Source of the DNA: Gemmatimonadota bacterium
Lineage (GTDB): Bacteria > Gemmatimonadota > Gemmatimonadetes > Gemmatimonadales > Gemmatimonadaceae
Assembly: GCA_016182795.1 (NCBI GenBank)
Contig: JACPFW010000010.1
Span: forward strand, 1 to 64,000
Length of the DNA stretch: 64,000 bases
Direction of reading: 5' to 3'
The stretch's first letter is position 1. Each line of letters starts with the position of its first letter. Below, piece by piece: positions 9,760 to 26,046 of this stretch. The notes under the pieces are model-generated. The model saw nothing but the letters and a program-made list of their open reading frames with translations, was not told the origin of the DNA and made no database searches. Position numbers and translations under genes: made by a program.

Positions 9760-9763
9760 GCGG

Positions 9764-11239
9764 TCAGTTCCTCACGGCGGCCGCCGCGGGCGGCCTGGCG
9801 GACGGCTTGGCGGACGGCTTGGCGGACGGCTTGGCGGACGGCTTGGCGGACGGCTTGGCGGGAAGCGTGGCCGGCGGCTTGGCCGGGGGCTTTGCGGCGG
9901 CTCCCGGTGACGCGTTGGCTTTGACGCGTCGGGCGGCGGTCCCGGTATCGCCAGTGGCCTGCGGCCGCCCGGCCGTGGAATTCTCGAGCCGGGTGATCCG
10001 CATCCGATCGTGATCAGGCGGCGGGGAGAGCAGCACGACGTCGTGTTCGGCGAGCCCGCGGGTGACGACCGCTTCCTCGTCGTTCACGGCCCCGGTCTCG
10101 ATCTCCTGCTTGGTGACGCGGCTGCCCGACCGCTTGAAGACGTACGGGACGCCGCTGTCGCTGGCCAGCGCCTCGAGCGGAATGTGCAGGGCATTCTTCG
10201 TCACCTGAGTTTCGATGGCATTCCCCGTCGTCATTCCCGGTCGCAGCGTGGTGTCGGGGGCGACGACGGTGATCTTCACCTCGAAGACCTTGGCGTCGGA
10301 GTTCGGCCGCTGCTCGCCGACATTGGCGACGGCGGCGACGACACCCGTGAGCCGCTTCGACGGATCGGCGTCGAGCGAGAGCGCCACTGGCTGGCCGACC
10401 GCGAGCTTTCGCACGTCGATCTCGTTGACGTACGTCACCGATTCCATTTGCGAGAGATCGGGGAGGGTGGCCACCGACGGGTTCCACGCCGATACCTGCG
10501 CGCCGACGGCGATCTTCTTGCCTTGCCAGTCACGTAGGTAGATCACCATGCCGGGCGCGGGCGCCGTGATGGTGAAGCCGGCCATGACGTCCTGCACGAT
10601 CTTCAGCCGGTTGCGCTGGCGCTCAAGGTCGGCGCCGACCTCGCGCATCTTCGCCTTCGCCTGCTCTTCCTTGGTCTTGTAATCGATGGAATCCTGCCGC
10701 AGCGCGCGGGTCGCCTTTTCGAGGTCGATGGCCGTCTGCCGCTGAATGCTGGGTGCCTCGAACTTGGACTGTTCACGCGCCAGCCGCTTTTCCTCGAGCG
10801 TCAGCACGGCGGTGTGAATCTCCTCGCGCGCCTTGGAGAGATTGAGCGTGGAGTCGAGCGATGCCTGTTCCCGCTGGGCCTCCGCTTTCTGCTGGGCCAG
10901 CGTGACATCATTGAGCGCCGAGGCCGCCGGTCCGCGGTCGAGCTCCGCCACAACGTCCCCTTCATCGACATGCGTCCCTTCGGGCACGATGGACAAGATC
11001 TTCACGCCATTGTACATGCCGGCCTGCTGCATGTTCTGCGGGCCGGTGATGTTCACGAATTTCGGCGCGCGCAGCTCCCCAGAGGTCGTGACGATCACCT
11101 TGAAGTCGCCGCGCTTTACGGTGGCCGTGAGGAGGTCGCCGCCCGGTGCCGGTCCGCGCAGGGTCATCCACGCGCCGGTCGCCGTCACGAGCACGAGGAG
11201 GGCGATCATCGCACGTCGATTCTTGAGCAGGCGATTCAT
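9764..11239 (-). CDS. HlyD/MacA-type periplasmic adaptor with KPSA-repeat tail
   Basis: A 491-residue membrane-fusion protein, first gene of the efflux operon. One N-terminal membrane anchor (about residues 10-27) is followed by a biotinyl-lipoyl-like half, a long alpha-helical hairpin rich in K, E, Q and R (about residues 105-225), the second lipoyl half (FTITAPAPGMVIYLRDW) and beta-barrel domains, as in MacA. The last 50 or so residues are an unusual low-complexity tail of Lys-Pro-Ser-Ala repeats. Start sites are uncertain because no clear Shine-Dalgarno precedes the ATG. It should join the MacB-type permease to the TolC-type channel. Confidence 0.9.
   Translation of the reverse strand: MNRLLKNRRAMIALLVLVTATGAWMTLRGPAPGGDLLTATVKRGDFKVIVTTSGELRAPKFVNITGPQNMQQAGMYNGVKILSIVPEGTHVDEGDVVAELDRGPAASALNDVTLAQQKAEAQREQASLDSTLNLSKAREEIHTAVLTLEEKRLAREQSKFEAPSIQRQTAIDLEKATRALRQDSIDYKTKEEQAKAKMREVGADLERQRNRLKIVQDVMAGFTITAPAPGMVIYLRDWQGKKIAVGAQVSAWNPSVATLPDLSQMESVTYVNEIDVRKLAVGQPVALSLDADPSKRLTGVVAAVANVGEQRPNSDAKVFEVKITVVAPDTTLRPGMTTGNAIETQVTKNALHIPLEALASDSGVPYVFKRSGSRVTKQEIETGAVNDEEAVVTRGLAEHDVVLLSPPPDHDRMRITRLENSTAGRPQATGDTGTAARRVKANASPGAAAKPPAKPPATLPAKPSAKPSAKPSAKPSAKPSARPPAAAAVRN
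9793..9862. repeat. 12-bp tandem repeat encoding Lys-Pro-Ser-Ala units
   Basis: Four perfect tandem copies of GCTTGGCGGACG (9805-9852), with degenerate copies on both sides, lie inside the 3' end of the adaptor gene. On the coding strand each unit gives four residues (K-P-S-A). The unit is a multiple of three, so copy-number change would lengthen or shorten the tail without a frameshift. Confidence 0.95.
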
Positions 11240-11535
11240 AAGCGATCACGGGAAGGGGAAGCGCGCGAATCAGCGCGCGCTCAACAATAACTGCGACGGG
11301 GTAAAGCCGCCATCACGCCACGTTACATAAAACCGGCACGACAACGCTGCCGGGTCAGGCGTCCAGTCATTGGACACCGGTCACGCGTATCTCGTTTGCT
11401 CCCTCAGACGGTATGTCCTGACGGCCACGATGGTCATAAACGCATCGTGACATTCCCATGAGGATTCAATGACGGGACAAAGCCGTGCGGCGCGCTCGTC
11501 GCGCGCACGGGGCCACCGGTCCCGCGGTGCGGAGC
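11240..11535. other. Intergenic region between the hydrogenase operon and the efflux operon
   Basis: This 296-bp stretch lies downstream of the hydrogenase small-subunit gene and upstream of the adaptor gene, both on the minus strand. It should hold the efflux promoter, but I cannot assign convincing -35/-10 boxes. A G+C-rich imperfect stem at about 11483-11510 (CCGTGCG-g-CGCG paired with CGCGCGCACGG, loop about 5 nt) could end the hydrogenase transcript; no U-tract follows it on the minus strand. No gene was seen. Confidence 0.5.
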
Positions 11536-12039
11536 TTAGCCCGCCCGCCGCAGGTGCGTCACGCCGGCCGCGAGTTCCTCGAGCGTTTCCTGCCGGAGAT
11601 GCTCCGGCGCCGCCTTCTTGGGGACGAGGCCCATGGCGACGGCGAGCGCGTAGAGGATGGCTTCGGGGCGCGGCGGGCAGCCGGGAATGAAGAAGTCCAC
11701 GTGGAAGGTCTCGTTAGCGCCGCCGGTCGTCGCGTACGAATCGAACCAGCTTCCGCCGCCCGCGGCACACGAACCCACGGCGACCACCAACTTGGGATCG
11801 GGCACGGCATCGATGAGCCGTTTGAGCGCCGGCGCGGCCTGCCGCGTGACCGGACCACTGACGAGAATCACATCGGCGTGCCGCGGCGAGCCGACCAGCC
11901 GGATGCCGAACCGCTCCGCGTCATAGTACGGCGTGAGCACGTCGATGACTTCGATGTCGCAGCCGTTGCACGCGCCGGCGTTCGCGTGGTAGACCCACAG
12001 CGACTTGGTGAAGGCCTTGCGGCAGAGTTCCTTGAGCAT
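11536..12039 (-). CDS. hyfI: [NiFe]-hydrogenase small subunit, group 4 (HyfI/HycG-like)
   Basis: A 167-residue subunit of the NuoB/hydrogenase small-subunit family carrying the proximal [4Fe-4S] cluster. Its four ligands are present: Cys24 and Cys27 (GACNGCDIE), Cys91 (VGSCAAGG) and Cys121 (IPGCPPRP). It has neither a Tat signal nor the medial and distal cluster domain of uptake hydrogenases, as expected for energy-converting group 4 enzymes, where it pairs with the large subunit on the cytoplasmic side. It is the last gene of the operon. I start it at the ATG at 12039, 5 nt after the stop of the HyfF-like gene. Confidence 0.93.
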   Translation of the reverse strand: MLKELCRKAFTKSLWVYHANAGACNGCDIEVIDVLTPYYDAERFGIRLVGSPRHADVILVSGPVTRQAAPALKRLIDAVPDPKLVVAVGSCAAGGGSWFDSYATTGGANETFHVDFFIPGCPPRPEAILYALAVAMGLVPKKAAPEHLRQETLEELAAGVTHLRRAG

Positions 12040-12044
12040 AGGAC

Positions 12045-13559
12045 TCACGAGCCTCCCAGCACGGCGAGCACGGTGGCCGCTCCATGGAGCGTGTCGTACG
12101 CGAGTGACGGCATCAGGCCGAGCAACAGGCAGAGCACGGCCACGGCAACCATCGGCGCCCACAGCGCGGCGGGCACCTCGCGCACCTCATCGAGCACCAG
12201 TCCATCCAGCGGAGGCGGCGCCCAGAAGACGCGAATCACGGGACGCACGACGGCCACCATGGTGAGCAGGCTGGTGAAGACCGCCACGCCGGCGGCCCAC
12301 CAGAGCCCCGAGTTGGCGAGCGCGAGGTAGATGGTGAACTTGCTCCAGAAGCCGTTGAACGGCGGGAAGCCCGCAATGGACAGGGCGCCGATCAGGAAGC
12401 AGGCGGCGGTGACCGGCATCTGGCGTGCGAGACCGCCGACCTGACTGATGCGGCGCACGCCCGTGGCGTACACCAGCGCGCCGGCGGCCATGAAGAGCAG
12501 GGCCTTGAACAGCGCGTGGTTCATCAGGTGGAAGAGCCCGCCATAGCAGCCCAGGTACGTACCGAGCGCGATGCCCGACAGTACATATCCCATCTGGCTC
12601 ACGGACGAGTAGGCGAGCAGGCGCTTGAGATCGTCCTGCGCCATGGCGAGCACCACGCCAACGACCATGGTGAGGCAACCGACGGCGACGGCGAACACGG
12701 TGAGCTGGGGAATGGCGGGGAAGAAGATGCTGACAGTGCGCGCCAGCGCGTAGAGCGCGACCTTGATCATCACGCCGGAGAGGAGCACGCTCACCGGCGC
12801 GGGCGCCTCCGCGTGCGCATCGGGGAGCCAGACGTGGAACGGCACGAGGCCGGCCTTCGAGCCGAATCCGATGATCAGCAGCGCCACCGCGGCGAGCGCC
12901 GTGGGACGTGGAATGAGGGGCGCGACATCGCGGATGCGGCTCAGCATAAGGGTATCGGCGCCGGTGAGTGTGCCGGTGGCGGCGCCGCCGGCGTAGACCA
13001 CCACGCAGCCAAGCAGGGCGAAGGTGATGCCGACGGTGAGCAGGATCAGGTATTTGTAGCCAGCCTCGAGCGCGCGGCGATTCCAGAAGAACGCCACCAG
13101 CAGCCCCGAGCTGAGCGTGGTGGCCTCAACCGCGACGTAGAGCATTACCACATTGTTGGTCACGACCGCCCACGACATCGTGCCGAGGAACATCAGGACC
13201 AACGCGTAGAAGACCGCCGGCCGCCGCTCGGGACCGCCCATGCCCGCGGTCTCCATCATCTGTCCGTGCGTCGAGTAGCGAATGGAGTAGACGACGGCAA
13301 TCAGGCCGATCACCCCGACGACGAGCATCATCAGGGCCGAGAGCGCATCGACGCGCAGCTCTTCGCCCCATGCGACGAGGATGTTGCCCGACGCGACACG
13401 CACGGCCACCACGACACCCACGACGGCGAGCAGGCCGGCGGTGACGAGGGCGACCAGTTCGCAATAGCGCCGCCGTCGCGTGCCGGTGGCGAGGAGCAGG
13501 CACCCGGCAATGACGGGGACCAGGCAGGCAATCGAGGGCAGCGAAGACGGCGTTACCAT
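12045..13559 (-). CDS. hyfF: Hydrogenase-4 antiporter-like membrane subunit (HyfF-like)
   Basis: A 504-residue protein with about 14 transmembrane helices, homologous to the Mrp/NuoN-type antiporter subunits. The conserved proton-path segment is visible as WLPDAHAEAPAPVSVLLSG followed by MIKVALYALAR, and LAYSSVSQMGYVLSGIALG marks the second channel. Its length and position next to the HyfE-like gene match E. coli HyfF. It should form one of three ion-translocating channels of the complex. The ATG lies inside the end of the HyfE-like gene (ATGGTAA, 7-nt overlap). Confidence 0.93.
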   Translation of the reverse strand: MVTPSSLPSIACLVPVIAGCLLLATGTRRRRYCELVALVTAGLLAVVGVVVAVRVASGNILVAWGEELRVDALSALMMLVVGVIGLIAVVYSIRYSTHGQMMETAGMGGPERRPAVFYALVLMFLGTMSWAVVTNNVVMLYVAVEATTLSSGLLVAFFWNRRALEAGYKYLILLTVGITFALLGCVVVYAGGAATGTLTGADTLMLSRIRDVAPLIPRPTALAAVALLIIGFGSKAGLVPFHVWLPDAHAEAPAPVSVLLSGVMIKVALYALARTVSIFFPAIPQLTVFAVAVGCLTMVVGVVLAMAQDDLKRLLAYSSVSQMGYVLSGIALGTYLGCYGGLFHLMNHALFKALLFMAAGALVYATGVRRISQVGGLARQMPVTAACFLIGALSIAGFPPFNGFWSKFTIYLALANSGLWWAAGVAVFTSLLTMVAVVRPVIRVFWAPPPLDGLVLDEVREVPAALWAPMVAVAVLCLLLGLMPSLAYDTLHGAATVLAVLGGS

Positions 13560-14227
13560 CGGAGCTCCCGAAGCCGGTACGTGTCAGTGGTGCCGAACTC
13601 GTGCACCAGTCCTTCGATGACGTAGAGCAGCAGGAAGACGGTGACCACCACTTCCGACGCGACGCCAAAGAGCGCCGTCTCCGGCAGACCCGGCGCAAAG
13701 CTCACGAGACCAAGGTGGATGCCGTTCTCGAGCAGGCAGAGTCCGATGACCGCCTTCACCGCGTCGCGGCGCGTGAGCAGCGCCCACAAGCCGAGGACAA
13801 ACACCGTGGAGGCTACCGCGAGATTGGTGCGGAGCACTTCGTCGTCGGCGAGCGCGCTGGGGACGAGGAGCGCTGCCTGGCCGTGCGTGAGCCGGAAGAA
13901 TGCGACCATCAGCACGGCAGCCACGAGAATGGACGGAGCGAAACCGACGAGCGGCTTCACCTCTTCGGTGCCGGTCTTGCGGATGTAGCGCAGGAGAAAC
14001 CACGGGATTAGCAGCGCCTTGGTCACCAGCGCGGTCGCGGCCCACCAGTACAGCGCGTGGTTCATGGCGGCAAAGGAGGCGAGCAGGGCGACGATGAGGA
14101 GCGCCTGAACCACATAGGCGACCACCGCCGCACGAAGCCGTCGGGTCTCGACCACAAGCACCGACGTGATGACGAGCGTCAGGCTCAGGGTGCGGATGAG
14201 CGAAACGGGGAGGAGGTCCGATATCAC
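13553..14227 (-). CDS. hyfE: Hydrogenase-4 membrane subunit HyfE-like
   Basis: A 224-residue, mainly hydrophobic protein with about seven helices, similar to HyfE, a fusion-like relative of the NuoK/MrpC subunits. The segment RDAVKAVIGLCLLENGIHLGLVSFAPG resembles the NuoK region, with an intramembrane Glu (LLENG) likely to take part in proton transfer. The GTG start overlaps the HyfH-like stop as GTGA. HyfE is found in hydrogenase-4 but not hydrogenase-3 of E. coli, which supports the larger Hyf-type assignment. Confidence 0.9.
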   Translation of the reverse strand: MISDLLPVSLIRTLSLTLVITSVLVVETRRLRAAVVAYVVQALLIVALLASFAAMNHALYWWAATALVTKALLIPWFLLRYIRKTGTEEVKPLVGFAPSILVAAVLMVAFFRLTHGQAALLVPSALADDEVLRTNLAVASTVFVLGLWALLTRRDAVKAVIGLCLLENGIHLGLVSFAPGLPETALFGVASEVVVTVFLLLYVIEGLVHEFGTTDTYRLRELRW

Positions 14228-14763
14228 GGCGTGGGTCTCCTCAGATCGACGGCCGAGGTGACACCATTGGGGGCCCACAGGTCGAGCAGGCCAGGCGCCG
14301 GTAGATCGGCGCCGGCGCGGGCGCACGACGTGTCGGCCCGAAACCCGCGAACAGGGAGCTGCTCCATGGACGTGGGCGGCGGGAAGCAGCGACCACACCG
14401 CTGACACGGACCCATGAAGACGTCAAGCGAGAGTTCGAGATCGTCCACCGTGTTGGTTGCGGTCTCGAACTCGAGCGTATGCGCGAGCGCGCCTTCGGGG
14501 CAAACCTCGGAGCAGCGTCCGCAGTAGGTGCAGCGGGCGAGCGAGAAATGCAGGGTGCGCACCATCGGCGCGTCGTCGCGGATGAGGATGACGCCCGAGG
14601 GGCAGACGGCGGCGCATCCGCCGCATCCGATGCACAGGTCAGCGTCGAGCGAGAGCTTGCCGCGGAATCCGGGCGCCGGATCGTGCGGCGCAAACGGATA
14701 CGGCAGGGTGACGCGTCCGGCCTGCACGCAGATGAGGGCTTCGCGGAGCTTGCTCAGGAGCAC
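14224..14763 (-). CDS. hyfH: Hydrogenase 4Fe-4S ferredoxin-like subunit (HyfH/HycF/NuoI-like)
   Basis: A 179-residue NuoI-like subunit expected to carry electrons between the peripheral modules and the small subunit. Two [4Fe-4S] motifs are complete: Cys44, 47, 50 and 54 (CIGCGGCAAVCP) and Cys78, 81, 84 and 88 (CTYCGRCSEVCP). A further group, Cys120, 123 and 126 (CQRCGRC) plus Cys147, could bind a third metal centre. The GTG start at 14763 has an AGGAGGT ribosome-binding site upstream, one of the clearest in the operon, and lies 10 nt beyond the HyfC-like stop. Confidence 0.92.
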   Translation of the reverse strand: MLLSKLREALICVQAGRVTLPYPFAPHDPAPGFRGKLSLDADLCIGCGGCAAVCPSGVILIRDDAPMVRTLHFSLARCTYCGRCSEVCPEGALAHTLEFETATNTVDDLELSLDVFMGPCQRCGRCFPPPTSMEQLPVRGFRADTSCARAGADLPAPGLLDLWAPNGVTSAVDLRRPTP

Positions 14764-14773
14764 GGTGCACCTC

Positions 14774-15691
14774 CTACATGCCGACGACGGCGAAGGCCAT
14801 CGCGGCGAGCGACGAGAGGGCGACGCGCAGATAGTATCCCATCGCCTGCTCGACCTTGAGACGCGGGTTCACGACGTCGACCACCGCGACCAGCACGAGC
14901 ACGACGAGCGCCTTGAGCAGCGCCAGCGGCGCGTCGGCCGCCAGCACGCCGGTGCGCGGCCACGGGAAGAACAGCTCAACGAGCAGGAGCGAGAAGACGA
15001 GCTGCCGGGCCCACATCGTCCAGCGAAACAGGGCGAGACGGGGACCGCTCTGCTCAACGAGCGGTCCACCCATGACCTCTTGGTCGGCCTCGGGGATATC
15101 GAATGGCAGCTTGCCGGCCTGCGCCTGCACCGCGAGAAAGAGCGCCACGCCGGCGAGCGTCATGCTGATGGTTGGGCCGTGCGCGGCGTTCCAGTCGGCG
15201 ATGCCAGCTACCGAGAGCGTGCCGGCCTTCATGGCGCCGACGACCAGTGTGACGGCCACCACCGGCTCCACCGAGAGCAGCGACATCATCTCCCGCGATC
15301 CGCCGACCGCGGCGTACGGGCTTCCGCTGGCGAACGCGGTGAGAATGAGCAGCACCGCGCTCATGCTGGCCACGTACACCACCCCAATGACGTCGCCGGC
15401 GAACGCGAGCGGCGGCGCGCCGCCAATGGGAATGATGGTGGCCAGCAGCAGCACCGATGCGAGCGCGGCGGCGGGCGCCACGGCGTACGCGGGGTGCTGC
15501 ACCGTCAGCAGATCCTCCTTGCCCAGCAGTTTCAGCGTGTCGAGGAAGGGCTGGAACACCGGCGGTCCCATGCGCGAATGCAGGGTGGCCTTCAACTTGC
15601 GCAGCAGGCCTTCATAGAGCGGTGACAGCAGAAGGACGAGCGCCACATTCAGAATGGCGAGGGCCGCAACTTTCAGGATGGTCGCGCTCAT
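14774..15691 (-). CDS. hyfC: Hydrogenase membrane subunit HyfC/HycD (NuoH-like)
   Basis: A 305-residue membrane protein with about eight helices, homologous to NuoH/HycD. The N-terminal SPLYEGLLRKLKATLHSRMGPP is the typical cytoplasmic loop that contacts the hydrogenase module, and IPEADQEVMGGPLVEQSGPR is the conserved acidic loop. The subunit anchors the catalytic module and links redox chemistry to ion movement. Its ATG overlaps the large-subunit stop by 4 nt (ATGA). Confidence 0.94.
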   Translation of the reverse strand: MSATILKVAALAILNVALVLLLSPLYEGLLRKLKATLHSRMGPPVFQPFLDTLKLLGKEDLLTVQHPAYAVAPAAALASVLLLATIIPIGGAPPLAFAGDVIGVVYVASMSAVLLILTAFASGSPYAAVGGSREMMSLLSVEPVVAVTLVVGAMKAGTLSVAGIADWNAAHGPTISMTLAGVALFLAVQAQAGKLPFDIPEADQEVMGGPLVEQSGPRLALFRWTMWARQLVFSLLLVELFFPWPRTGVLAADAPLALLKALVVLVLVAVVDVVNPRLKVEQAMGYYLRVALSSLAAMAFAVVGM

Positions 15692-17385
15692 AGGTCGTAT
15701 CCCCCGTCGCCGGTGGACGCCGACTGGGTCAGTGCCTGCAGTTCCTTGAGCGAGTAGACACGCACCCGGCCGTCACGGCAGTCCACGGTCTCCATGCGCT
15801 CGGTGCACGAGAAGCAGGGGTCGATGCTGCCAATGGTGATGGGGACGTCGGCGATGGACTGGCCGCGAATCATCGCCGGAATAGCCTGCAGGTTGGGGAA
15901 CGTTGGGGCGCGCACCCGCCACCGATACGGCCGGTTCACGCCGCCCGTCATGACGAAGTGAATGGCCTCGCCGCGCGGCGCCTCGACCGCGGACACGCCA
16001 ATGCGCCCGGCGGGAATCTCGTCGAACTCGGCGAGCACGGGTCCGGTGGGGAGGTTGTCGATCGCCTCCCGCACCAACCGAATGCTGTCGGCCAACTCAT
16101 CGAGACGCACAATGACGCGCGACCACGTGTCGCATCCGTCGGCGAGGCAGAGGTGCGGGGGAAGGTCGTCGTACGCCGCGTACGGATGGTCGAGCCGCGC
16201 ATCGATTGGCACGTTCGACGCGCGCGCCGGCGGTCCGACGACGCAGATCTCCCGCGCCCATTCCGTGGAAAGCGGTCCCACACCCTTGGTGCGGGCATGC
16301 AGGGTGCTGTCGTCCGTGATGGCCTTGCGCACGGCGATGGCTTCGCGCTCGACCGTGGCGAGGACGTCGCGAATCCTCGGCAGCTGGGCGTCGCTGATGT
16401 CGCGCCGCACGCCGCCCACCATGTTCATGCCATACGTCTTGCGGTTGCCGCTGATCTCCTCGGTCAGCCACATCACGGGCTCGCGGATGCGCCACGTCTG
16501 CATCAGCACGGTGTCGAATCCAATGATGTGCCCGGCGATGCCCAGCCACAGCAGGTGCGAGTGGATGCGCTCGAGTTCGAGCATGATGGTGCGGATGTAC
16601 GCCGCGCGACGCGGCACAACGATACCCGCGGCCTTTTCGGCGGCCTGGCAATAGCACGTGGAGTGAATGAAGCCGCAGATGCCGCAGATGCGCTCGGCGA
16701 GGAACGGGATGCGATCCCACGTGAGCACGCTGTCGCCGAGCTTCTCGATGCCGCGATGATTGTAGAAGCCGCGATAGTCGCAGCCCACCACCGTCTCGCC
16801 CTCGACGAACAGCCGAAAGCGCGCCGGCTCCTCGAGCACCGGGAAGAAGGGACCGATGGGAACCACGCTCGTTCCCTTGGGCGGCGACTTGAGTTCCGGA
16901 GCCGCGCCCTCCACCGACGGCGGCCGGTAGTTGTACGCGACGTCACGGCGCAGGGGATGCACCCCCTTGGGCCAGTCGTCGGGAAGCACGAGGCGACGCG
17001 GATCGGGATGCCCCACGGGCTCCACGCCGATCATGTCGTGGAATTCCTGCTCGGCCCACGCCGCGCCCGGAATGAGCGGCGTGATGGAATCGATGCGCGG
17101 ATCGCCCGCCGACACGGGGCAATCAATCGCGACGAACTGGTGCGCGTCGTCCATCGCGAAGAGATGGACAATGCCGTAGCCGCCGCCAAGCGGACGCTCG
17201 TCAATGCCGACGGTGACGAGGAATCGGGTGCCGAGTTCTTTCATGGTTGCGGTGGCGGTCCGCACGTCGGCCGGGTTCACGGACACCCAGAGGAGATCGG
17301 GCTCCAGCTCGCGGGCCACCAAGAGGCCGGCGCCGAGACGACTTGTCAGCAGGGTGACCGCCTCGGCGGTTGCGGTGGCGATCAT
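15688..17385 (-). CDS. hyfG: [NiFe]-hydrogenase large subunit, group 4 (HyfG/HycE-like, with NuoC-like N-domain)
   Basis: A 565-residue catalytic subunit. Residues about 1-155 form a NuoC-like (30-kDa) domain and the rest a NuoD/hydrogenase large-subunit domain; this fusion is normal for HycE/HyfG. Both Ni-binding cysteine pairs are intact: Cys234 and Cys237 (RICGICGFIHS) and Cys524 and Cys527 (DPCFSCTER). A 35-residue tail follows Arg530, matching the pro-peptide that an endopeptidase removes after nickel insertion in HycE. The enzyme should therefore be a functional hydrogenase rather than a complex I subunit. The ATG overlaps the preceding stop by 4 nt. Confidence 0.95.
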   Translation of the reverse strand: MIATATAEAVTLLTSRLGAGLLVARELEPDLLWVSVNPADVRTATATMKELGTRFLVTVGIDERPLGGGYGIVHLFAMDDAHQFVAIDCPVSAGDPRIDSITPLIPGAAWAEQEFHDMIGVEPVGHPDPRRLVLPDDWPKGVHPLRRDVAYNYRPPSVEGAAPELKSPPKGTSVVPIGPFFPVLEEPARFRLFVEGETVVGCDYRGFYNHRGIEKLGDSVLTWDRIPFLAERICGICGFIHSTCYCQAAEKAAGIVVPRRAAYIRTIMLELERIHSHLLWLGIAGHIIGFDTVLMQTWRIREPVMWLTEEISGNRKTYGMNMVGGVRRDISDAQLPRIRDVLATVEREAIAVRKAITDDSTLHARTKGVGPLSTEWAREICVVGPPARASNVPIDARLDHPYAAYDDLPPHLCLADGCDTWSRVIVRLDELADSIRLVREAIDNLPTGPVLAEFDEIPAGRIGVSAVEAPRGEAIHFVMTGGVNRPYRWRVRAPTFPNLQAIPAMIRGQSIADVPITIGSIDPCFSCTERMETVDCRDGRVRVYSLKELQALTQSASTGDGGYDL

Positions 17386-19421
17386 GGTGCGCCTCCGGTG
17401 ACGAGCAGAACCGTCAAGATCACCGCAACGGCGCCGATGATGATCCAGAGCAGGTAGACCTGCGGAATGCCCACGTGGGTGCGACTGACGCCGCGCACCG
17501 CGCCCTGCGTGCCACGCGCCAACGGCTGATAGAGCCAGTGGTCGAGGTCGAGGGTTCGGCGCAGAAAGTCCGGGAACTCGAATCGCACCACGGGCATGCG
17601 CGGATACATGCCGTGAAAGACGTCCTTGAATGGCCGATACAAACTGTCTGCCCGATAGCGCAGCTCCGCCGGATTCTCTTCCTCGCCGCACGCCCAGACG
17701 GGCACCCGGCGCGTCACGACCCCGCCGGCGCGCTGCAGGCCGACGTACGCGGCGATGCCGAGGATGAGCAGGACCGCGGTCAACGGCACCGGCGCCCACG
17801 ACGCGAGCGTGATGCCGTCTCGCGCCAACGCGAGCGTGGTGTTGGAACCACCGAGCAGGGACGCAAAGTCTGGCGCACCGATCATCGACGGCAGTCCGAC
17901 GATTGCCTGATGCACGAGGCGCAGCACCGCGAACGGCGCAAGTCCGACCACCAGACAGGCACCGGCGAGCACGTACTGCGGCGCGAGCATCGTGGCCGGG
18001 ACGTCACGAATGGGCGGCGCGCCCGCCGGCGTCACGACCGGCGCACCGAGGAAGGCGCCGGCGACGTACTTCACGAACGACGCCAGCGTGACGATGGAGA
18101 TGAACATCGCGACGAGTGCGGCCACTGGGAGCAGGAACGACGACTCGGCGCCGAGGATGCCAGTGGCGTACAGCAGCCATTTGCTGGTGAAGCCATTCAA
18201 CGGCGGCACGCCGGCGATAGCCAGCGAGGCCACTAGGGAGCAGGCCATCGTGCCGGCCATCACGCCGCCGAGTCCGCCGCCGAGCGCCGACAGGCTGCGC
18301 GAGCCGGTCCGATACTCCACCGCGCCGGCGCCAAGAAACAGGCACGGCTTGTAGAGGGAGTTGTTGATGAGGTGGAACAGACCGGCGACGAGGCCCAGGG
18401 TGCCGAGCAGCGGATCGGTTTGCATGAGCGCAATGCCGGCTCCCACGCCGAAGAACATGTAGCCGACCTGGCCGATGACGTGGTACGACATCAGGCGCTT
18501 GGCATCATCCTGCTTGAGGGCGCTGAGCGTTCCGGCGAAGAGCGAGGTCAGTCCGGCGACAGCGATGACAATGCCCCAAATCGTCGTGGCCGGGCCGAGC
18601 GGGAGCAGGTGCAGGAAGACGCGCAGCAAGCCGTAGATGCCGAGCTTGGTCATCGTGCCGCCGAAGGCAGCGGTCACACTCGTGGGCGCGGCGGTGTAGG
18701 CATCGGGCAGCCAGGTGCCCATCGGCAGGATGCCGGCCTTGGTGGCGAACCCGAAAAAGAAGAGGAAGAGCACCGCATGCCCAGTGACCGGCGCGGTGTC
18801 CAACAGTGTGGCGAGCGAGACGCGAATGGCCTCGAAGTCGAACGACCCGGCGCGACGCCACAGCACCAGCGCGGCGCCCATCAGGCCGAGCGCGGCGCCC
18901 TGATTCCAGACGAAGTACTTGAGGCCCGCACGATGCGCCTCCCGGCTCTCGCGTTCGAAAATCACGAGCACGAACGACGTCAGCGTCATCAGTTCCCAGA
19001 ACACCAGGAACCAGAAGAGGTCGGTGGTGACCACCGTGCCGCCGATGGCCAGGAAGAGGATCAGGAGCACGGGGTAGTACTTCGTCAGACCGTCCCGCAC
19101 GAAGCGCCCCATGTACTCCACCGAATAGAGCGTGGTGAGCAGGGCGATGGGGCCCGCGAGGCACAGGAAGACGGCGCTCAGCGGATCAACATGGATGCGC
19201 AGCGCCGCGCCGAGGGCGCGAATAGGGAGCGCGGAGACCTCCGGGTCACCGCCGCCGCGAAACGCGCGGACCGCGGACGCCACCATCAGGATGGCCGCAC
19301 CGCTGACGGCGACGACGCTCACCCAAGCGCCGCGGCGGCCGCGGCGCGCGGTGATCAACGCGCCGAGGGCGCCAGCGATGAGAAACGCGGCCGCGGCCTC
19401 AAGAAGGCGAAACGTGATCAT
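17382..19421 (-). CDS. hyfB: Hydrogenase-4 antiporter-like subunit B (HyfB/NuoL-like)
   Basis: A 679-residue membrane protein, close to the length of E. coli HyfB (672). About 16 helices are predicted. The antiporter signature is seen in LPDAYTAAPTSVTAAFGGTM and following TKLGIYGLLRV, and LMSYHVIGQVGYMFFGVGAG marks the second half. A long C-terminal extension with VWACGEEENPAELRYRADS and a last helix matches HyfB/HycC, where the lateral helix and final helix clamp the membrane arm. The start at 19421 gives ATGA overlap with the previous gene. Confidence 0.94.
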   Translation of the reverse strand: MITFRLLEAAAAFLIAGALGALITARRGRRGAWVSVVAVSGAAILMVASAVRAFRGGGDPEVSALPIRALGAALRIHVDPLSAVFLCLAGPIALLTTLYSVEYMGRFVRDGLTKYYPVLLILFLAIGGTVVTTDLFWFLVFWELMTLTSFVLVIFERESREAHRAGLKYFVWNQGAALGLMGAALVLWRRAGSFDFEAIRVSLATLLDTAPVTGHAVLFLFFFGFATKAGILPMGTWLPDAYTAAPTSVTAAFGGTMTKLGIYGLLRVFLHLLPLGPATTIWGIVIAVAGLTSLFAGTLSALKQDDAKRLMSYHVIGQVGYMFFGVGAGIALMQTDPLLGTLGLVAGLFHLINNSLYKPCLFLGAGAVEYRTGSRSLSALGGGLGGVMAGTMACSLVASLAIAGVPPLNGFTSKWLLYATGILGAESSFLLPVAALVAMFISIVTLASFVKYVAGAFLGAPVVTPAGAPPIRDVPATMLAPQYVLAGACLVVGLAPFAVLRLVHQAIVGLPSMIGAPDFASLLGGSNTTLALARDGITLASWAPVPLTAVLLILGIAAYVGLQRAGGVVTRRVPVWACGEEENPAELRYRADSLYRPFKDVFHGMYPRMPVVRFEFPDFLRRTLDLDHWLYQPLARGTQGAVRGVSRTHVGIPQVYLLWIIIGAVAVILTVLLVTGGAP

Positions 19422-20887
19422 GGCGCGATCCGATGGACGAGGGGAATGCCGATGACGGGCGCGATCAGGCACCCGAGCATCAGGACCCACAGCGCGGCCT
19501 TCATGCTGCGCGGCAGGAGAATGGGTTGCCGTTCCACCCCGGTTGGTGTCCACGGCCCGAGAAAGACCACTTGGCCGACGCGCAGCATCCAGCCGAACGC
19601 GACAAGGCTCTCGACGAGGACGAGGGTGACGATCACCGGGCCCATTGGACTGGGCAGTCGAATGGCGCCGGCGAGAATCATGAACTTGCTCCAGAAGCCG
19701 GCGAATGGTGGAATGCCGGTGACGGTCACCACGCCGATGAAGTACGCGGCGGCGGTGATGGGCATGACGCGCGCGACGCCGCGGAGCCGCGAAATGCTGC
19801 GCGAGCCGGTAATCCACGCCACGGCACCGACGCACAGGAACAGCGTCGCCTTGCCGAAGGCGTGGCAGATGATGTGCAGCACGCCGCCTTGCAGGCCGAC
19901 GGGCGAGCCCATCGCCCCGATGGCGACGCCAAGAAGTACGTAGCCCAAATGCGCGATCGTCGAGTACGCGAGCAGCCGCTTGAGATCGTCCTGCAGGAAA
20001 TAGAAGGACAGCGCGACGAGCATCGTAACGAACGCCATCACGGCCATCAGCAGTCCGACGCCGTGCGGGACCGCCCATCCGCTGCTCACGGCGCGGGCCA
20101 TCAAGAAGACCCCGGCCTTGACCATCGCCGCCGCGTGCAGGTACGCGCTGATCGGCGTCGGCGCCTCCATTGCGTCGGGCAGCCACGTGTGCAGCGGCAC
20201 CTGCGCCGCCTTGGCCCACGCGGCAACGAGCAGGAAGCCGTAGACCCAGCCCCGCAGGTTCTCGTTCATCCGCGACGGCGCGTCGAAGTCGAACGATCCG
20301 GTCTGCGCGAACATCACGAGCAGGGCGGCGATGAAGAACAGGCCGCCCGCGTGCGTCATGAGGATGGCCTTGAAGCCGACCCGCAGGCTGGTTGCACTTC
20401 TATAGAATGAGATCAGCGACCACGAGCAGACCGCCGTCAGTTCCCAGAACAGGAACAACTGCAGGAAGTTGGGCGCGGTGGCGACGCCGACCATGCTGGC
20501 CATGAAGGCGAGCAGCCAGAAGTAATAGCGTCCCTGATCCTCGGGCGTCCCGTGATGTTCCTGATTGTGCTCGGTGAGGTATCCGTGCGAATACAGCACG
20601 GTGAGGAAACCGATGATCGTGACGACGAGCAGCAGGATGGTCGCCAGCGGGTCGAGCAGGAGACCGAACAGACCAGCCCCAGCCTCACGCCCGAGCCACG
20701 GCAGGCCGCCGAGCCGAACGTCATAGCCCAACGGGAAGGCTGACCAGGCGGCCCAGATGGCGAGCAGCGCGGCCGCCAGCGCGGCGCGCACGGCGATGCC
20801 GCGTGATTCTTCCGCGCGCGCGTGGCCGGCCATCACGGCGCCGGCAACGGGGAGCAGGAGCACGAGACAGAGGATCACCGTCAGCAT
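19418..20887 (-). CDS. hyfD: Hydrogenase-4 antiporter-like subunit D (HyfD/NuoN-like)
   Basis: A 489-residue protein with about 14 helices, similar in length to E. coli HyfD (479). Antiporter features include WLPDAMEAPTPISAYLHAAA followed by MVKAGVFLMAR, and LLAYSTIAHLGYVLLGVAIG. It is the third Mrp-type subunit of this operon, giving a membrane arm as large as that of hydrogenase-4. The ATG at 20887 overlaps the maturation-protease stop (ATGCTGA); an upstream extension to 20962 would run further into the protease gene and is unlikely. Confidence 0.92.
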   Translation of the reverse strand: MLTVILCLVLLLPVAGAVMAGHARAEESRGIAVRAALAAALLAIWAAWSAFPLGYDVRLGGLPWLGREAGAGLFGLLLDPLATILLLVVTIIGFLTVLYSHGYLTEHNQEHHGTPEDQGRYYFWLLAFMASMVGVATAPNFLQLFLFWELTAVCSWSLISFYRSATSLRVGFKAILMTHAGGLFFIAALLVMFAQTGSFDFDAPSRMNENLRGWVYGFLLVAAWAKAAQVPLHTWLPDAMEAPTPISAYLHAAAMVKAGVFLMARAVSSGWAVPHGVGLLMAVMAFVTMLVALSFYFLQDDLKRLLAYSTIAHLGYVLLGVAIGAMGSPVGLQGGVLHIICHAFGKATLFLCVGAVAWITGSRSISRLRGVARVMPITAAAYFIGVVTVTGIPPFAGFWSKFMILAGAIRLPSPMGPVIVTLVLVESLVAFGWMLRVGQVVFLGPWTPTGVERQPILLPRSMKAALWVLMLGCLIAPVIGIPLVHRIAP

Positions 20888-21363
20888 GCCAGCGCCTCCT
20901 GCAACAGGGCCGTCAGATGGTCGGCCGACGCGGCGACCGGTTCGCTCATGGGCTCGCCCCATTCGAGCGAGGCGGGTTGCACGGCGAGGAGCAGCACGGC
21001 GGCGCCGGTCAGCCGTTCGATGAGCGACGCGGTGAGACGCAGCGGCGTGCGATGCGTGCAGGCGCCGGCGTCATCGAGTGTCGCGGCATCGAGCAAGGCC
21101 GACGACCCCGGCGATGCGCCGAGGTTGGCGGAGTCCACGAACAGCACGACATCGGGGCGGGCCGCGGTCACGACGCCGAGGAAATTTTCCGGGACGTCCT
21201 CGGCGTCCACCACGGTTAGTCCGCCGCGTCGCGCAAGCGGCCCGCGGCGGCACGCGTCAGCCAGGGCGCCGGCAATGCGGCACCCCACGCCGTCATCCGC
21301 ACGCAGGGGATTGCCGACGCCCACCACGGCGACGCGGCCTCGGAGACGGTCGGCGAGTCTCAC
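20881..21363 (-). CDS. Hydrogenase maturation endopeptidase (HycI/HyaD family)
   Basis: A 160-residue protein of the HycI/HyaD peptidase family, which trims the C-terminal tail of the large subunit after Ni-Fe site assembly. The nickel-recognition motif VGVGNPLRADDGVG is near the N-terminus, VDSANLG supplies the second acidic site, and a histidine follows in CTHRTPL. The substrate is very probably the large subunit encoded four kb downstream in the operon, which keeps its 35-residue tail. The GTG start forms GTGA with the diaphorase stop. No hypABCDEF assembly genes lie in this window. Confidence 0.88.
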   Translation of the reverse strand: MRLADRLRGRVAVVGVGNPLRADDGVGCRIAGALADACRRGPLARRGGLTVVDAEDVPENFLGVVTAARPDVVLFVDSANLGASPGSSALLDAATLDDAGACTHRTPLRLTASLIERLTGAAVLLLAVQPASLEWGEPMSEPVAASADHLTALLQEALAC

Positions 21364-22181
21364 TCCCACATCTCCTCGATCTCGCGCACGTTGTACACCG
21401 GGCCGTCGCGGCAGAGATAATGGTGCCCCACGCAGCAGTGATTGCACTTGCCAACTCCGCACTGCATCATGCGTTCGAGCGTCGAGATGACGTGCTCAGC
21501 CGCGAAGCCGCGCGCGAGCAGGTCCTTTACGACGAACTTGATCATGATCGGCGGACCGCAGACGTACGCGAGGCTCGTGTCGGGGCGCAGGTCCACCTGA
21601 TCGAAGAGCGTGGGGACCATCCCCACCGAGCCTTCCCACCCCGGCGCGCCGCGGTCGACCGTAACGCGCACCGTCACGTGGTCGCGCCGTTCCCACTCTC
21701 GCAGCTCGTCCTTGTACACGAGGTCCGCGGGCGTACGCGCGCCGTACAGAATGGTGATGTCGCCGAACTGGTCGCGCTCGTCGAGGACGTTCCAGATGAG
21801 GCTGCGGAGCGGCGGCAGCCCGATGCCGCCCGCCACGAATACGAGGTCGTGGCCTCGCGCGGCGTCGACGTCGAAACCATTGCCGCATGGGCCGCGCAGC
21901 CCAAGCTCAGCGCCCGGAGCCAGCGCGAACAGCGCGTCGGTAAGCCGTCCGCATTTGCGTACCGTCACCTCGACGCCGCCCGGGCGAGTGGGGCTCGACG
22001 CCAGGCAGAACGGCGCCTCACCGGTGCCGAACACCGAGAGTTCCAGAAACTGACCGGGGCGATACGAAAATCGTCCCTGTTCGGCGAAGTCGCGGAACCG
22101 AAGCGCGTAGGTGCGCACGTCCGGCGTCTCGTCGCGCTGGGTCAGAATGGTGGCGACGCTTGGCAGGAGGAGTTCAGGCAT
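21360..22181 (-). CDS. FAD/NAD(P)-binding diaphorase subunit (HydG/sulfhydrogenase gamma-like)
   Basis: A 273-residue ferredoxin-reductase-type protein. The FAD domain carries RPGQFLELSVFG (RxxS/Q-type flavin site) and GLRGPCGNGFDVD. The NAD(P) domain carries VFVAGGIGLPPLRSL and YVCGPPIMIKFV. A C-terminal [2Fe-2S] motif has Cys241, 246, 249 and 257. This is the layout of sulfhydrogenase gamma/dihydroorotate dehydrogenase electron-transfer subunits. It should exchange electrons between NAD(P)H and the HydB-like subunit. ATG 22181 is preferred over ATG 22196 because GGAGG lies 8 nt upstream; it overlaps the HydB-like stop by 8 nt. Confidence 0.9.
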   Translation of the reverse strand: MPELLLPSVATILTQRDETPDVRTYALRFRDFAEQGRFSYRPGQFLELSVFGTGEAPFCLASSPTRPGGVEVTVRKCGRLTDALFALAPGAELGLRGPCGNGFDVDAARGHDLVFVAGGIGLPPLRSLIWNVLDERDQFGDITILYGARTPADLVYKDELREWERRDHVTVRVTVDRGAPGWEGSVGMVPTLFDQVDLRPDTSLAYVCGPPIMIKFVVKDLLARGFAAEHVISTLERMMQCGVGKCNHCCVGHHYLCRDGPVYNVREIEEMWE

Positions 22182-23244
22182 GGATGCGTCCTCCATCCCA
22201 GGTGCCGTGTCGAATCGCCGCCACCACGGTGGGCATGTCGGTGGTGCCCATGCACGCCTTCACGCAGCGCCCGCAGCCCACGCAGCCCACGCGGCCATCG
22301 CGTCGGAAGTACTGGGCACTGACCTTGTGATGGAAACGTCGCTTGATGCGCTCCCGCGACGCGTGACGCGGATTATGCCCCGACGCCTCCATCGTGAACG
22401 CCGAGTACTGGCAGGAGTCCCAGAGCCGGCAACGCGTGGAGCAGCCATCGGTCGCTGGCGCGTCTGAGACGCTGAAGCAGTAGCAGGTGGGACACAGGTG
22501 CGTGCAGGCTCCGCATTCGAGGCACCACGGGCTCATCGCCTCCCAGAGTCCCTCGGCGACGCGGTGGGTGGAGATGCGGCGCATCGCCGACGCAAAATGA
22601 CACGTCTCGTCGCCGAAGCTCGCGAGTGCGGTCTGTTCGGCCGTCGTACGCCGCGCGCTGGCCTCTTCGTCGGCCGGGCGGAACAGGTGCGGTGACAGAT
22701 CGAGCAGGGCGCGGCCCTTGTCGGTACCCACCTCCACGTGCAAGGCGGTGCCAATATCGGTGAGCTGCAGGTCATAGTCCTTCCGCAAGAACGGGCCGGC
22801 GTCGGTGCACGGGCAGAAGCCGAGCGGACACGGCATGGTGCACGCGAGGGTGACGACCGTTAAGGCGGCGGCCCGGCGCTCGACGGTGTCGTCGGGCAGG
22901 TCGCGAGCGTACATCTGGCGCAAGAAGGCGAGCCCGGTGGCATCACAGCTCCGCACATTGAAGAGCACACGTTCCGCCGGGATCCTGGCGGCTTCTACGG
23001 CAACGTGACCATCGACCGTCTTGAAGTGGGCAAGCGGCTCGGTCTGCGGCAGCAGAAATTGTTTGAGCGGACCGAGCGGATTCTCAAAGGTCCACAACAC
23101 CTCGCCGGGTGACGTGATGCGGGCGAAGATCTCGTCGCCGTTGGCCGCGCGCGTCGGCGCGATTATTTCGCGCCGGTCGAGGATATGCGCCAGCCAATCG
23201 TGTACGTCGTGCTTTGCGATGACGCAGGCGGCATTCCTCTCCAC
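22174..23244 (-). CDS. Multi-cluster iron-sulfur subunit (HydB/sulfhydrogenase beta-like)
   Basis: A 356-residue 4Fe-4S dicluster protein similar to the beta subunit of archaeal sulfhydrogenase and to AsrA. The N-terminal half contains FNVRSCDATGLAFLRQMY, typical of the family. Cysteine groups then follow at 241/244/247/251 (CGACTHLCP), with extra Cys254, 256, 268, 272 and 278, and at 321/324/327/331 (CVGCGRCVKAC). It should pass electrons from the diaphorase toward the hydrogenase. The start is a GTG with AGGGGGAG upstream, 26 nt beyond the stop of the molybdopterin-fold gene. Confidence 0.9.
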   Translation of the reverse strand: MERNAACVIAKHDVHDWLAHILDRREIIAPTRAANGDEIFARITSPGEVLWTFENPLGPLKQFLLPQTEPLAHFKTVDGHVAVEAARIPAERVLFNVRSCDATGLAFLRQMYARDLPDDTVERRAAALTVVTLACTMPCPLGFCPCTDAGPFLRKDYDLQLTDIGTALHVEVGTDKGRALLDLSPHLFRPADEEASARRTTAEQTALASFGDETCHFASAMRRISTHRVAEGLWEAMSPWCLECGACTHLCPTCYCFSVSDAPATDGCSTRCRLWDSCQYSAFTMEASGHNPRHASRERIKRRFHHKVSAQYFRRDGRVGCVGCGRCVKACMGTTDMPTVVAAIRHGTWDGGRIHA

Positions 23245-23270
23245 GGATCGGCTCCCCCTTCGCTAATGCC

Positions 23271-25106
23271 TCAGACGCACGTGACGGAGACCTCGATGGC
23301 GGCCGCCGCTCCCGACACGGCCGCCAGCCGGTCGCGATGCGCGAACGGAACCATCAGCACACCCCGTTCCAACTCGTCACGCAGCGTGACGGGGACGTCC
23401 GCCTCGCCCATGCTCGAGTGCAACCGGACCCTCCATCCTTCGCGTACACCCAGCGAGCCGGCGTCATCGGCGTTCATCATCACGACACCGTTGGGGTACA
23501 GTCGCCGCGCCGACGCCGCGTCGCGACGCAGGATCGGCGACGCGGTCACCAACGCATCATCGGCCCAGTCGAACATCCCGTCGCGGCGCAGCAGCCAGCG
23601 GGGCGCGGCGTCCCTCGCCGGCGCGTCCGTTTCCGGGACAGGCGCCTCGTTCCGCATTGCATCAATCGACGGCACCGCGGTGCGGATGCCCTGTTCAACC
23701 GCCTCGAGTGTGCGCGGCGCAAAGCGGGCACCGAGTCCGTGGAGCAGGTCACTTAGCACCAACCACGCGGGCCGGACATTCGGCGGCGGATCGACGCACG
23801 GCCGCCAGCGCTGCACGCGTCCTTCGAGGTTGGTGAGCGTGCCCTCCTCCTCGCCGAACGCGGCGATGGGGAGGACCACATGCGCCGCCCTTGCGGTGGG
23901 GGTGGCGTAGCTGTCGAGTACAACGAGCGACGTCAGCGCGGCCAGTTGAGCGGCGGCGCGCGAGGGCCACGCGTCAAAGCTCAGCGGGTCGTCGGCGACG
24001 ACCACGAGTCCGGATACGGCGCCGAGCATCTCGGCGGCCGGGCGTCCCGTGGTGAAGCAGGGCTCGCCTCCCCAGAGCGTGCGCAGCCGGTCGCGCGCGC
24101 CGGCGTCGTCGAGGGGGAATCGACCGGGGAGCGCGTCCGGCACGGCGCCCATGTCGAGGGCGCCGCGGGTGTTGGCGCGGATCGGGAGCGGAAGCATGAG
24201 CGGTGCGCCCGCGCCCGACGCCACAAGGTCATCGGCAAAGCGAGTGACCTCTGCCGCCGTGGCTTGCAGGACCGCGGTGTCCGCATCGAATGGCGCAAGC
24301 ACGAACGCCGCGCGTCGAGCCGGCGCCATCAGCGCGGCCGCGCGCTCCAGCGCGCTGGGCGCGGCGCCAGCGGCCACCGCGTACGTCCCGCGCATTGTGT
24401 CGATCACCGTGCATCGCAGGGCGTGCAGGATGGGACGCCGCGCCTCGTCGTGCATCGCAAGCGATACCGAGGCCACGCGGCTTAACTTCGTGCGGCGACG
24501 ACCAAGCGTGATCAGATGACCACCGCGACGGAGGACGCGCAGGATGGCCATCGCCACACGGGGATGCGTCGTGGCCACGTCGCCCTCGACGAGCACCACG
24601 ACATCCGTCTGTTCCAGCCGCCGGAAATCGGTGTCGGGCGACGCCAGCTCTGATGTGCGAAGCCGCGGAGGGAGCAGCGCCTGATAGCCGTCGCGCAGGC
24701 CGGCATCCACGTGCCCGGTGCCGAGCGCTGAACGCGCGAGCGTGACCGCGAGAAAATTGGACTCGTTGGTCGCCCGCCCCGAGCCGAGCACTCCGAGAGG
24801 GCGGCCTTCGCGGCGGAGTGACGTCAGCGCCTGCACGGCGACCCCCAGCGCCTCATTCCACGACGCCGGACGCAGAGCGCCGCCCTCGCGCACCTGCGGG
24901 GTGAGGAGACGCTCGCTCCAACGCGTGGCATCCGACGCGGCCCACCCACGCGCGCACAGCCGTCCCTCGGAAACCGGGTGAGACTCGCTGGGCTCGACGC
25001 ATAAAAAGCCCTCACCGTCGCCTCGCAGGTGCATGCCGCACCCGCAAGCGCAGAAAGGGCAAACCGTCAGTGTATCCCGCAACCCCGAAACCTCTCGGGA
25101 AATCAT
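23271..25106 (-). CDS. Molybdopterin-oxidoreductase-fold protein lacking the catalytic Sec/Cys (FdhF/NuoG-like)
   Basis: A 611-residue member of the formate dehydrogenase alpha/NuoG family and first gene of the hydrogenase operon. The N-terminal [4Fe-4S] site is intact (Cys16, 19 and 23 in CPFCACGCGMHL; Cys51 in RLCARGW). The region equivalent to E. coli FdhF VDCCARVUHGP reads VDAGLRDGYQA: the metal-binding Sec/Cys becomes Gly140 and the active-site His becomes Tyr141. The electron-relay Lys after the fourth cysteine is Arg. Formate oxidation is therefore unlikely by the known mechanism; a NuoG-like wiring or scaffold role is more plausible. The ATG at 25106 is chosen; the frame is open to 25271. 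Confidence 0.85.
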   Translation of the reverse strand: MISREVSGLRDTLTVCPFCACGCGMHLRGDGEGFLCVEPSESHPVSEGRLCARGWAASDATRWSERLLTPQVREGGALRPASWNEALGVAVQALTSLRREGRPLGVLGSGRATNESNFLAVTLARSALGTGHVDAGLRDGYQALLPPRLRTSELASPDTDFRRLEQTDVVVLVEGDVATTHPRVAMAILRVLRRGGHLITLGRRRTKLSRVASVSLAMHDEARRPILHALRCTVIDTMRGTYAVAAGAAPSALERAAALMAPARRAAFVLAPFDADTAVLQATAAEVTRFADDLVASGAGAPLMLPLPIRANTRGALDMGAVPDALPGRFPLDDAGARDRLRTLWGGEPCFTTGRPAAEMLGAVSGLVVVADDPLSFDAWPSRAAAQLAALTSLVVLDSYATPTARAAHVVLPIAAFGEEEGTLTNLEGRVQRWRPCVDPPPNVRPAWLVLSDLLHGLGARFAPRTLEAVEQGIRTAVPSIDAMRNEAPVPETDAPARDAAPRWLLRRDGMFDWADDALVTASPILRRDAASARRLYPNGVVMMNADDAGSLGVREGWRVRLHSSMGEADVPVTLRDELERGVLMVPFAHRDRLAAVSGAAAAIEVSVTCV

Positions 25107-25288: not shown

Positions 25289-25951
25289 CTACCCAGTGGG
25301 ACCTTCGGTGGCGGCGGCGCCTGTCTCGTGGGCGAATGCGTACGCGACGACCGCCGCCCGACGGTGCACGTGGAACTTTTCAAGGATGTTGCGCATGTGA
25401 AAGCGCACGGTGTTCTCGCTCAGCCCAAGCGACTCGGCCAGCTCGCGATTGGACGTTTGGCCGCTCGTCATTCGCGCCAGCATTTCATGTTCGCGCGGTG
25501 TGAGCGTCACGGGCCTGCGGGTATGGTTGCCGACGGCGGTGTCGGCATAGTGTTCGAGCAGACGAGTGGCGAGCGATGGTGACACGACGATCTCGCCCGC
25601 GGCGCACCGGTTGAGCAGGCTGCAGAACACGCCTTCATCCAGGTCGCGCGTGACGAAGCCACGCGCGCCAAAGGCCACCGCTTCGAGGAACAGGTCGTCG
25701 TCACTCGGTCCGGCGAGCACGACGACGGCGGTACGCGGCTGTGCCATCGAGATAACGCGGGCGGCGGCGAGCAGTTCCGCCGGGGCGCCGTGCAGGTCGA
25801 GCAGCACGAGATCGGGCTGCTGGCGCGCCGCCAGGTCAATGGCTTCGGCGCCGGAGTCCGCTTCGGCCACCACCTGATGTCCGTGTCCCTCGAGCAGGGA
25901 CCGGAGCGCCCGACGCACGAGCACCTGTTGGTCCGCGATGAGAATCTGCAC
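25289..25951 (-). CDS. NarL/LuxR-type response regulator with atypical receiver
   Basis: A 220-residue two-domain regulator. The receiver (about residues 1-115) keeps the phosphoacceptor Asp52 (LVLLDLHGAP), but the second acidic-pocket residue is Gln8 (IADQQ instead of DD), the switch Thr is Ala80 (VVVLAGPSD) and the conserved Lys is Arg102 (GFVTRD). The C-terminal LuxR helix-turn-helix (LTPREHEMLARMTSGQTSNR then ELAESLGLSENTVRFHMRNI) looks intact. No sensor kinase is nearby. It lies 183 bp upstream of the hydrogenase operon on the same strand, so it may control it. I start it at the GTG at 25951; the frame extends to 25993. Confidence 0.88.
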   Translation of the reverse strand: MQILIADQQVLVRRALRSLLEGHGHQVVAEADSGAEAIDLAARQQPDLVLLDLHGAPAELLAAARVISMAQPRTAVVVLAGPSDDDLFLEAVAFGARGFVTRDLDEGVFCSLLNRCAAGEIVVSPSLATRLLEHYADTAVGNHTRRPVTLTPREHEMLARMTSGQTSNRELAESLGLSENTVRFHMRNILEKFHVHRRAAVVAYAFAHETGAAATEGPTG

Positions 25952-26046
25952 GACGTGACCCCGCGCAAAATTCAGCAACGATGGGCGATGCAACGCGCCT
26001 CGCGAGGGCTCTCGTCCCCACGAGGCGCGCGTGTCGGCATCACCTG

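Follow-up and report, generated by a model that had tools for sequence, protein, structure and literature searches.

A stretch of 64,000 nucleotides (positions 1-64,000 of contig JACPFW010000010.1, assembly GCA_016182795.1; hereafter the window) from a soil-type Gemmatimonadota bacterium (Gemmatimonadaceae), whose source is a metagenome only, carries a twelve-gene operon that probably encodes a membrane-bound, ion-translocating [NiFe] hydrogenase with NAD(H) (nicotinamide adenine dinucleotide), most likely NADH, as its soluble electron partner. An original prediction on this DNA had described twelve same-strand genes with mostly overlapping junctions, comprising eight core Hyf-type subunits and a maturation protease, preceded at the promoter-proximal end by HydG-like, HydB-like and FdhF/NuoG-like genes. 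All twelve open reading frames (ORFs), here lettered A to L, were found on the minus strand from 25106 down to 11536; 8 of the 11 junctions overlap by 4-10 nt, and the remaining gaps are 5, 10 and 26 nt. Pfam and NCBIfam profiles identified HyfD-, HyfB-, HyfG/NuoCD-, NuoH/HyfC-, HyfH-, NuoB/HyfI-, HycI-, HydB-, HydG- and FdhF/NuoG-like products, the HyfD assignment lying above the equivalog cut-off, while HyfF was named by alignment to E. coli HyfF and HyfE from its place in the operon and its relatives. The core inventory and the protease thus bear out the description, as do profiles and structure matches for the three promoter-proximal genes; no HyfA/HycB-like gene lies within the operon. 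The gene order recurs in other phyla, which places the operon far beyond chance.

The hydrogenase core retains the residues expected of an active enzyme of this type. The large subunit G (15688..17385), a NuoC/NuoD fusion, has HycE as its best solved relative (453 bits), and both Ni-ligand CxxC motifs of its NuoD-like part are intact (ERICGIC and DPCFSC, all Cys codons, with TGC/TGC at the two N-terminal ligand positions). An assignment to Ehr, a hydrogenase-related complex, was rejected because these Ni-coordinating cysteines are retained. As in E. coli HycE, G continues in a tail after DPCFSCTER, which agrees with the presence in the operon of the HycI-type maturation protease D (20881..21369, start uncertain; TIGR00072 above cut-off); HypD is encoded elsewhere in the genome. 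The HyfI/NuoB-like small subunit L (11536..12039) was assigned by profile, and the HyfH-like protein I (14224..14763) has two [4Fe-4S] motifs. I also contains an extra conserved CxxCxxC (C120, C123 and C126), which could hold a further metal site.

The membrane arm is composed of three antiporter subunits, HyfD-like E (19418..20887; NF005097 above cut-off), HyfB-like F (17382..19421) and HyfF-like K (12045..13559), together with the HyfC/NuoH-like subunit H (14774..15691) and the HyfE-like membrane subunit J (13553..14227). The charged residues of E, F, K and H are conserved in 41-51 sequences and are mostly common to E. coli Hyf, which suggests that the ion-moving arm is functional. Like a group 4 energy-converting hydrogenase, the operon has partner subunits of the NuoH, antiporter and NuoB/NuoI kinds that retain channel residues.

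The link to NAD(H) comes from B and C. Protein B (22174..23244; Fer4_22) is a HydB-like Fe-S protein and C (21360..22181, start possibly 22196) a HydG-like FAD (flavin adenine dinucleotide)/NAD(P)/[2Fe-2S] protein, and their best PDB matches are the beta and gamma subunits, respectively, of P. furiosus sulfhydrogenase 1. Fifteen cysteines of B and the four [2Fe-2S] cysteines of C are conserved among the relatives. B and C are the only products of the group 3b NADP-linked hydrogenase kind in the operon, which holds neither the catalytic HydA/HydD subunits of that enzyme nor the NuoE/NuoF NADH module of complex I. All 41 sequences of C (one of them a second HydG in locus L040) have Asp at position 176, and alignments place Thr at the equivalent position of NADPH-linked sulfhydrogenase 1 gamma and Asp at that of NADH-linked PyrK. 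In cytochrome b5 reductase, the D239T substitution moved the preference from NADH to NADPH (PMC5817062). The NAD(P)H:H+ oxidoreductase coupled to ion transport that the original prediction had proposed is consistent with the Ni ligands, channel residues, cofactor motifs and synteny; its NAD(P) link is supported, and Asp176 refines it, making NADH the likelier substrate of C over NADPH.

In the proposed mechanism, A, B and C would assemble on the Hyf arm as one complex. NADH would reduce the FAD and [2Fe-2S] cluster of C, and electrons would then pass through the Fe-S clusters of B to the [4Fe-4S] cluster of A, which has the fold of a formate dehydrogenase but not the active site and would act as wire and scaffold, like NuoG in complex I. 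From A they would reach the clusters of I and L and finally the NiFe centre of G, the site of interconversion between protons and H2. This redox step would either power the passage of ions through E, F, K, H and J or be powered by it. D is predicted to trim the large-subunit tail. With potentials of about -280 mV for NADH and -414 mV for H2 under standard conditions, as given in PMC9304861, electron transfer from NADH to H2 is uphill at standard H2, so H2 evolution would need low H2 or an ion gradient. H2 uptake is favoured at high H2, and the sequence is compatible with either direction.

Several points weigh against this assignment. The pump arm with its three antiporters is difficult to reconcile with the small NADH/H2 potential gap, and a lower-potential donor such as ferredoxin would suit it better. 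The same genome encodes a separate HoxF/U/Y/H-like soluble hydrogenase. The rule that equates Asp with NADH derives from other flavoprotein families, methane monooxygenase reductase is without Asp at that position in the alignment, and Asp176 is only presumably, by its motif, the counterpart of cytochrome b5 reductase Asp239. The association between loss of the formate site and presence of HydB/HydG, described below, rests on few independent events, and a sign test yielded too few independent pairs for statistics. No biochemistry on such an enzyme was found in the open-licence literature.

The energetic argument leads to the alternative that the enzyme is linked to ferredoxin, or to ferredoxin and NADH together, with A-B-C as a docking or confurcating module, which would place it near an Mbh-like role; we regard this as possible but rather improbable. 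A low-potential donor is energetically favoured, B and I are rich in Fe-S clusters, and an Mbh-like role was proposed for a similar gene set in Saganbacteria (PMC6349859). Simple ferredoxin-linked group 4 enzymes, however, manage without A-B-C, only a single flavin protein is encoded, and sulfhydrogenase 1, to which the nearest relatives of B and C belong, is an NADPH-linked enzyme.

Protein A (23271..25106) raises the question of formate as the electron donor. Its predicted structure has the FdhF fold (mean pLDDT, the predicted local distance difference test score, of 78; template modelling (TM) score 0.78 to 1aa6), its profile scores are best among formate dehydrogenases, NuoG matches as well, and a PHROGs scan was uninformative. 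The four cysteines of its one [4Fe-4S] site are kept in 37 of 38 aligned copies. The formate active site is lost: the window copy has Gly-Tyr at positions 140/141 in place of the Cys/Sec-His pair and no Cys between residues 51 and 232, and the pair is missing from 35 of the 38 copies (Sec, selenocysteine). Only three copies, those of L050, L051 and L058, have both Cys/Sec140 and His141; of these, just L050 and L051 also have Arg333 and so the complete triad. These last two loci follow the formate hydrogenlyase plan, with a HycB-like protein and without HydB/HydG; L058 has HydB/HydG, and its A protein has Cys-His but Ile at the Arg position.

A formate hydrogenlyase, in which A oxidises formate and feeds electrons to the hydrogenase, is thus unlikely, despite the fold and profile scores of A and the presence of FdhD elsewhere in the genome. 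Formate hydrogenlyase operons on Azospirillum and Rhodovastum plasmids adjoin HycH, a formate transporter and FdhD, and queries taken from them found none of the three in the fetched loci; HycB-like genes adjoin the hydrogenase only in L050, L051 and L062. No HycB-type carrier, HycH or formate transporter lies beside the window operon, and a formate-based reading leaves two NAD-type subunits unexplained. Hausmann et al. 2018 (PMC6018796) did call the hyf operon of the acidobacterium SbA1 a formate hydrogenlyase. An SbA1 contig, L037, carries the same twelve genes and, as it gives the sole HyfG-level match in that genome, very probably holds the operon they meant. In its A protein the Cys/Sec, His and Arg columns are occupied by Ile, Cys and Leu, and this lack of catalytic residues argues against the annotation.

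Having suggested that similar gene sets might exist in related genomes, the original prediction held the peripheral genes to be functionally unlinked should the syntenic operons of relatives lack them. One scan of GTDB genomes with two exact peptide patterns gave 56 loci, all in metagenome-assembled genomes; isolate carriers may be missed because of these exact patterns. The loci span Gemmatimonadota, Acidobacteriota, Armatimonadota, KSB1, Calditrichota, Aminicenantes, delta-/proteobacterial labels and others. HydB and HydG are present together in 39 of the 45 loci with enough upstream sequence (the remaining six are L034, L046, L047, L050, L051 and L062), and in about 25 loci, two later-added Gemmatimonadota among them, genes A to L follow one another in unchanged order on a single strand. 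Across phyla the operon has kept HydB, HydG and the Mo-fold gene, so the condition set for refuting the link did not arise. That A-B-C form a separate soluble enzyme, such as an AsrAB-like sulfur reductase merely sharing the hydrogenase transcript, is highly improbable: B and C do match AsrA/AsrB, but the operon holds no AsrC-like catalytic subunit, A is without a catalytic site and the linkage is kept across phyla.

Within the window's own class the operon was found in 7 of 394 genomes, and among genus-mates of the host in only 1 of 10 searched, a rarity that suggests transfer or loss. In a tree that took Mbh, Ech and an AOR-linked hydrogenase as outside references, the four group 4a references (E. 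coli and alphaproteobacterial) group together with 100/100 support at the end of a long branch. The relatives of the window fall outside this clade in a spread without resolved branching, a placement that establishes neither membership in group 4a nor a clade of their own; the approximately unbiased test of the family as a clade apart from group 4a gave a p-AU of 0.476. L046 and L047 (CP070815.1) are two partial large-subunit copies on a chromosome that also holds a complete operon, L077, and they look like broken halves or assembly errors. Caldithrix abyssi was considered as a cultured carrier and rejected, as its paper reports no group 4 hydrogenase.

A second feature of the large subunit belongs to members of the family and not to the window. 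In 16 of 55 readable members (a count that includes the Cys-coded window), an in-frame TGA lies exactly at one or both N-terminal Ni-ligand Cys codons, and this TGA probably encodes Sec. Ten members have one TGA in the arrangement ERICGI-U (L064:10546, L069:10715, L071:10712, L072:10706, L074:1089, L075:2053, L078:10700, L081:10724, L085:10697 and L087:1357), one has ERI-U-GIC (L052:10667), and five have two TGA codons as ERI-U-GI-U (L056:2182-2193, L057:8853-8864, L063:10667-10678, L066:10691-10702 and L067:10685-10696). The frame is open on both sides of the TGA in all 16, and reading through it gives a full-length large subunit in L071 (one TGA) and L057 (two). Separate NuoC and NuoD genes were rejected for these 16 relatives, since an in-frame TGA at the Ni-ligand codon connects the two ORFs. 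Almost every other gene of these operons reads as one uninterrupted ORF (F of L064, in two pieces, is an exception), so TGA is not generally a sense codon in these genomes and genome-wide recoding is unsupported. Sequencing error is unlikely: the 16 genomes come from several studies, their TGAs fall only on the two Ni-ligand codons, and the other operon genes are mostly intact. In L075 the second Ni motif stretch is masked as Ns.

Directly 3' of the TGA lies a conserved putative hairpin, CACAGTAC-loop-GTACTGT, of which 6-8 of 8 pairs form in TGA members, compared with 2 in most Cys members. A Ser codon within the hairpin is AGT/AGC in 16 of 16 TGA sequences versus 9 of 39 Cys sequences (Fisher p 7e-8, counting sequences and not events), and a single compensatory change, from T-A to C-G, occurs in L066. 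The covariation signal is weak, with 42 of 500 shuffles reaching the observed level, and folding energies are modestly better than those of shuffles (modest z-scores). Rfam gave no match of the hairpin to a selenocysteine insertion sequence (SECIS), and the loop, in which a G comes early, at about 17 nt from the TGA, agrees with the bacterial SECIS pattern. tRNA-Sec scores at least 68 bits in 11 of the 16 TGA genomes and SelB lies above cut-off in 11 of 16, with one or the other present in 13; neither is clearly shown in the genomes of L056, L074 and L085. The machinery is also common in Cys-coded genomes and does not separate the two groups (SelB p 0.23), and it thus permits the Sec reading without proving it. 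The trait maps to about three changes on the tree.

Several genes outside the operon were also observed. A LuxR-type response regulator (25289..25993, minus strand; Response_reg and GerE), a possible regulator, lies 182 bp upstream of gene A on the same strand, and a similar gene occupies the same place in the nearest relative (L033:1334-1990). A promoter scan found no sigma-70-like site. The KSB1-type loci encode an [FeFe]-hydrogenase domain protein directly downstream of the operon (L071:16010-17974; also L072, L078, L081, L085 and L087); these proteins carry a histidine kinase domain, except in the contig-cut L072, and are likely H2 sensors. Sigma-54 response regulators lie near the operon in L064 and L085, and together with the [FeFe]/kinase proteins they are consistent with H2-responsive control in KSB1-type loci. 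In the host genome, the HoxF/HoxU/HoxY/HoxH-like soluble hydrogenase, probably of group 3d, lies at G000:C26 (L104, about 6574-11268). A second complex I/Hyf-like set is found at G000:C38:40968-42329 (L027); its large subunit is without either CxxC Ni motif, as in an Ehr-like complex.

Taken together, the operon represents a real, conserved and uncharacterised variant of group 4 hydrogenase that is most likely NADH-linked, with a probable selenocysteine branch in the family. More tentatively, and with somewhat more doubt than confidence, it may represent a widespread class of ion-pumping NADH:proton oxidoreductases, an independently assembled complex I analogue that uses a formate-dehydrogenase subunit as wiring, with Sec at the N-terminal Ni ligands in about three lineages, the first group 4 NiFeSe enzymes and the first Sec in that motif. 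The group 4 hydrogenases characterised so far take electrons from ferredoxin, formate or carbon monoxide. Through a conserved NADH-linked version, hydrogen metabolism would be coupled at an ion pump to the cell's main electron carrier, and the enzyme would offer a present-day parallel to how complex I arose. Genomes with the operon risk being misread as those of H2 producers that use formate, which is probably not the substrate. Should the TGA codons encode Sec, they would provide natural [NiFeSe] sites with selenium at new ligands, including doubly substituted ones, and would bear on why selenium is otherwise found at one ligand only; gene callers that take TGA as a stop would split, and so hide, such large subunits.

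Compared with known systems, the window operon shares with E. coli Hyf/Hyc (group 4a) the eight core subunits in kind, the Ni motifs, the HycE-type tail and the HycI-type protease (large subunit about 43% identical to G); it differs in having no HycB/HyfA or HycH, in the addition of HydB and HydG, in the lost formate site and in its gene order, D-B-G-C-H-E-F-I. The SbA1 operon has the same twelve genes and differs in being named a formate hydrogenlyase in the literature. Matheus Carnevali et al. 2019 described an enigmatic group 4 hydrogenase in Saganbacteria RX5A with antiporter-like subunits, an unclassifiable molybdopterin oxidoreductase, cooF, asrA and asrB (PMC6349859). By this description it is alike in kind, AsrA/AsrB being HydB/HydG homologues, and it differs in the additional cooF-like gene and the Mbh-like role proposed for it. 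HydDB lists groups 4f and 4g as putative. P. furiosus sulfhydrogenase 1 (group 3b) has beta and gamma subunits homologous to B and C, but is soluble, has other catalytic subunits and has Thr where C has Asp. In the known [NiFeSe] hydrogenases the natural Sec sits in the C-terminal motif and is not known at the N-terminal Ni-ligand position. HydDB lists NiFeSe variants in groups 1a, 3a and 3c only, with none in group 4. The predicted Sec of the 16 relatives likewise replaces a Ni-ligand Cys, but in the N-terminal motif and sometimes twice. With respiratory complex I the operon shares the modular plan, the pumping arm and a Mo-fold subunit without a Mo site (NuoG); it differs in lacking NuoE/NuoF, in retaining the Ni ligands and in having protons, not quinone, as the expected acceptor.

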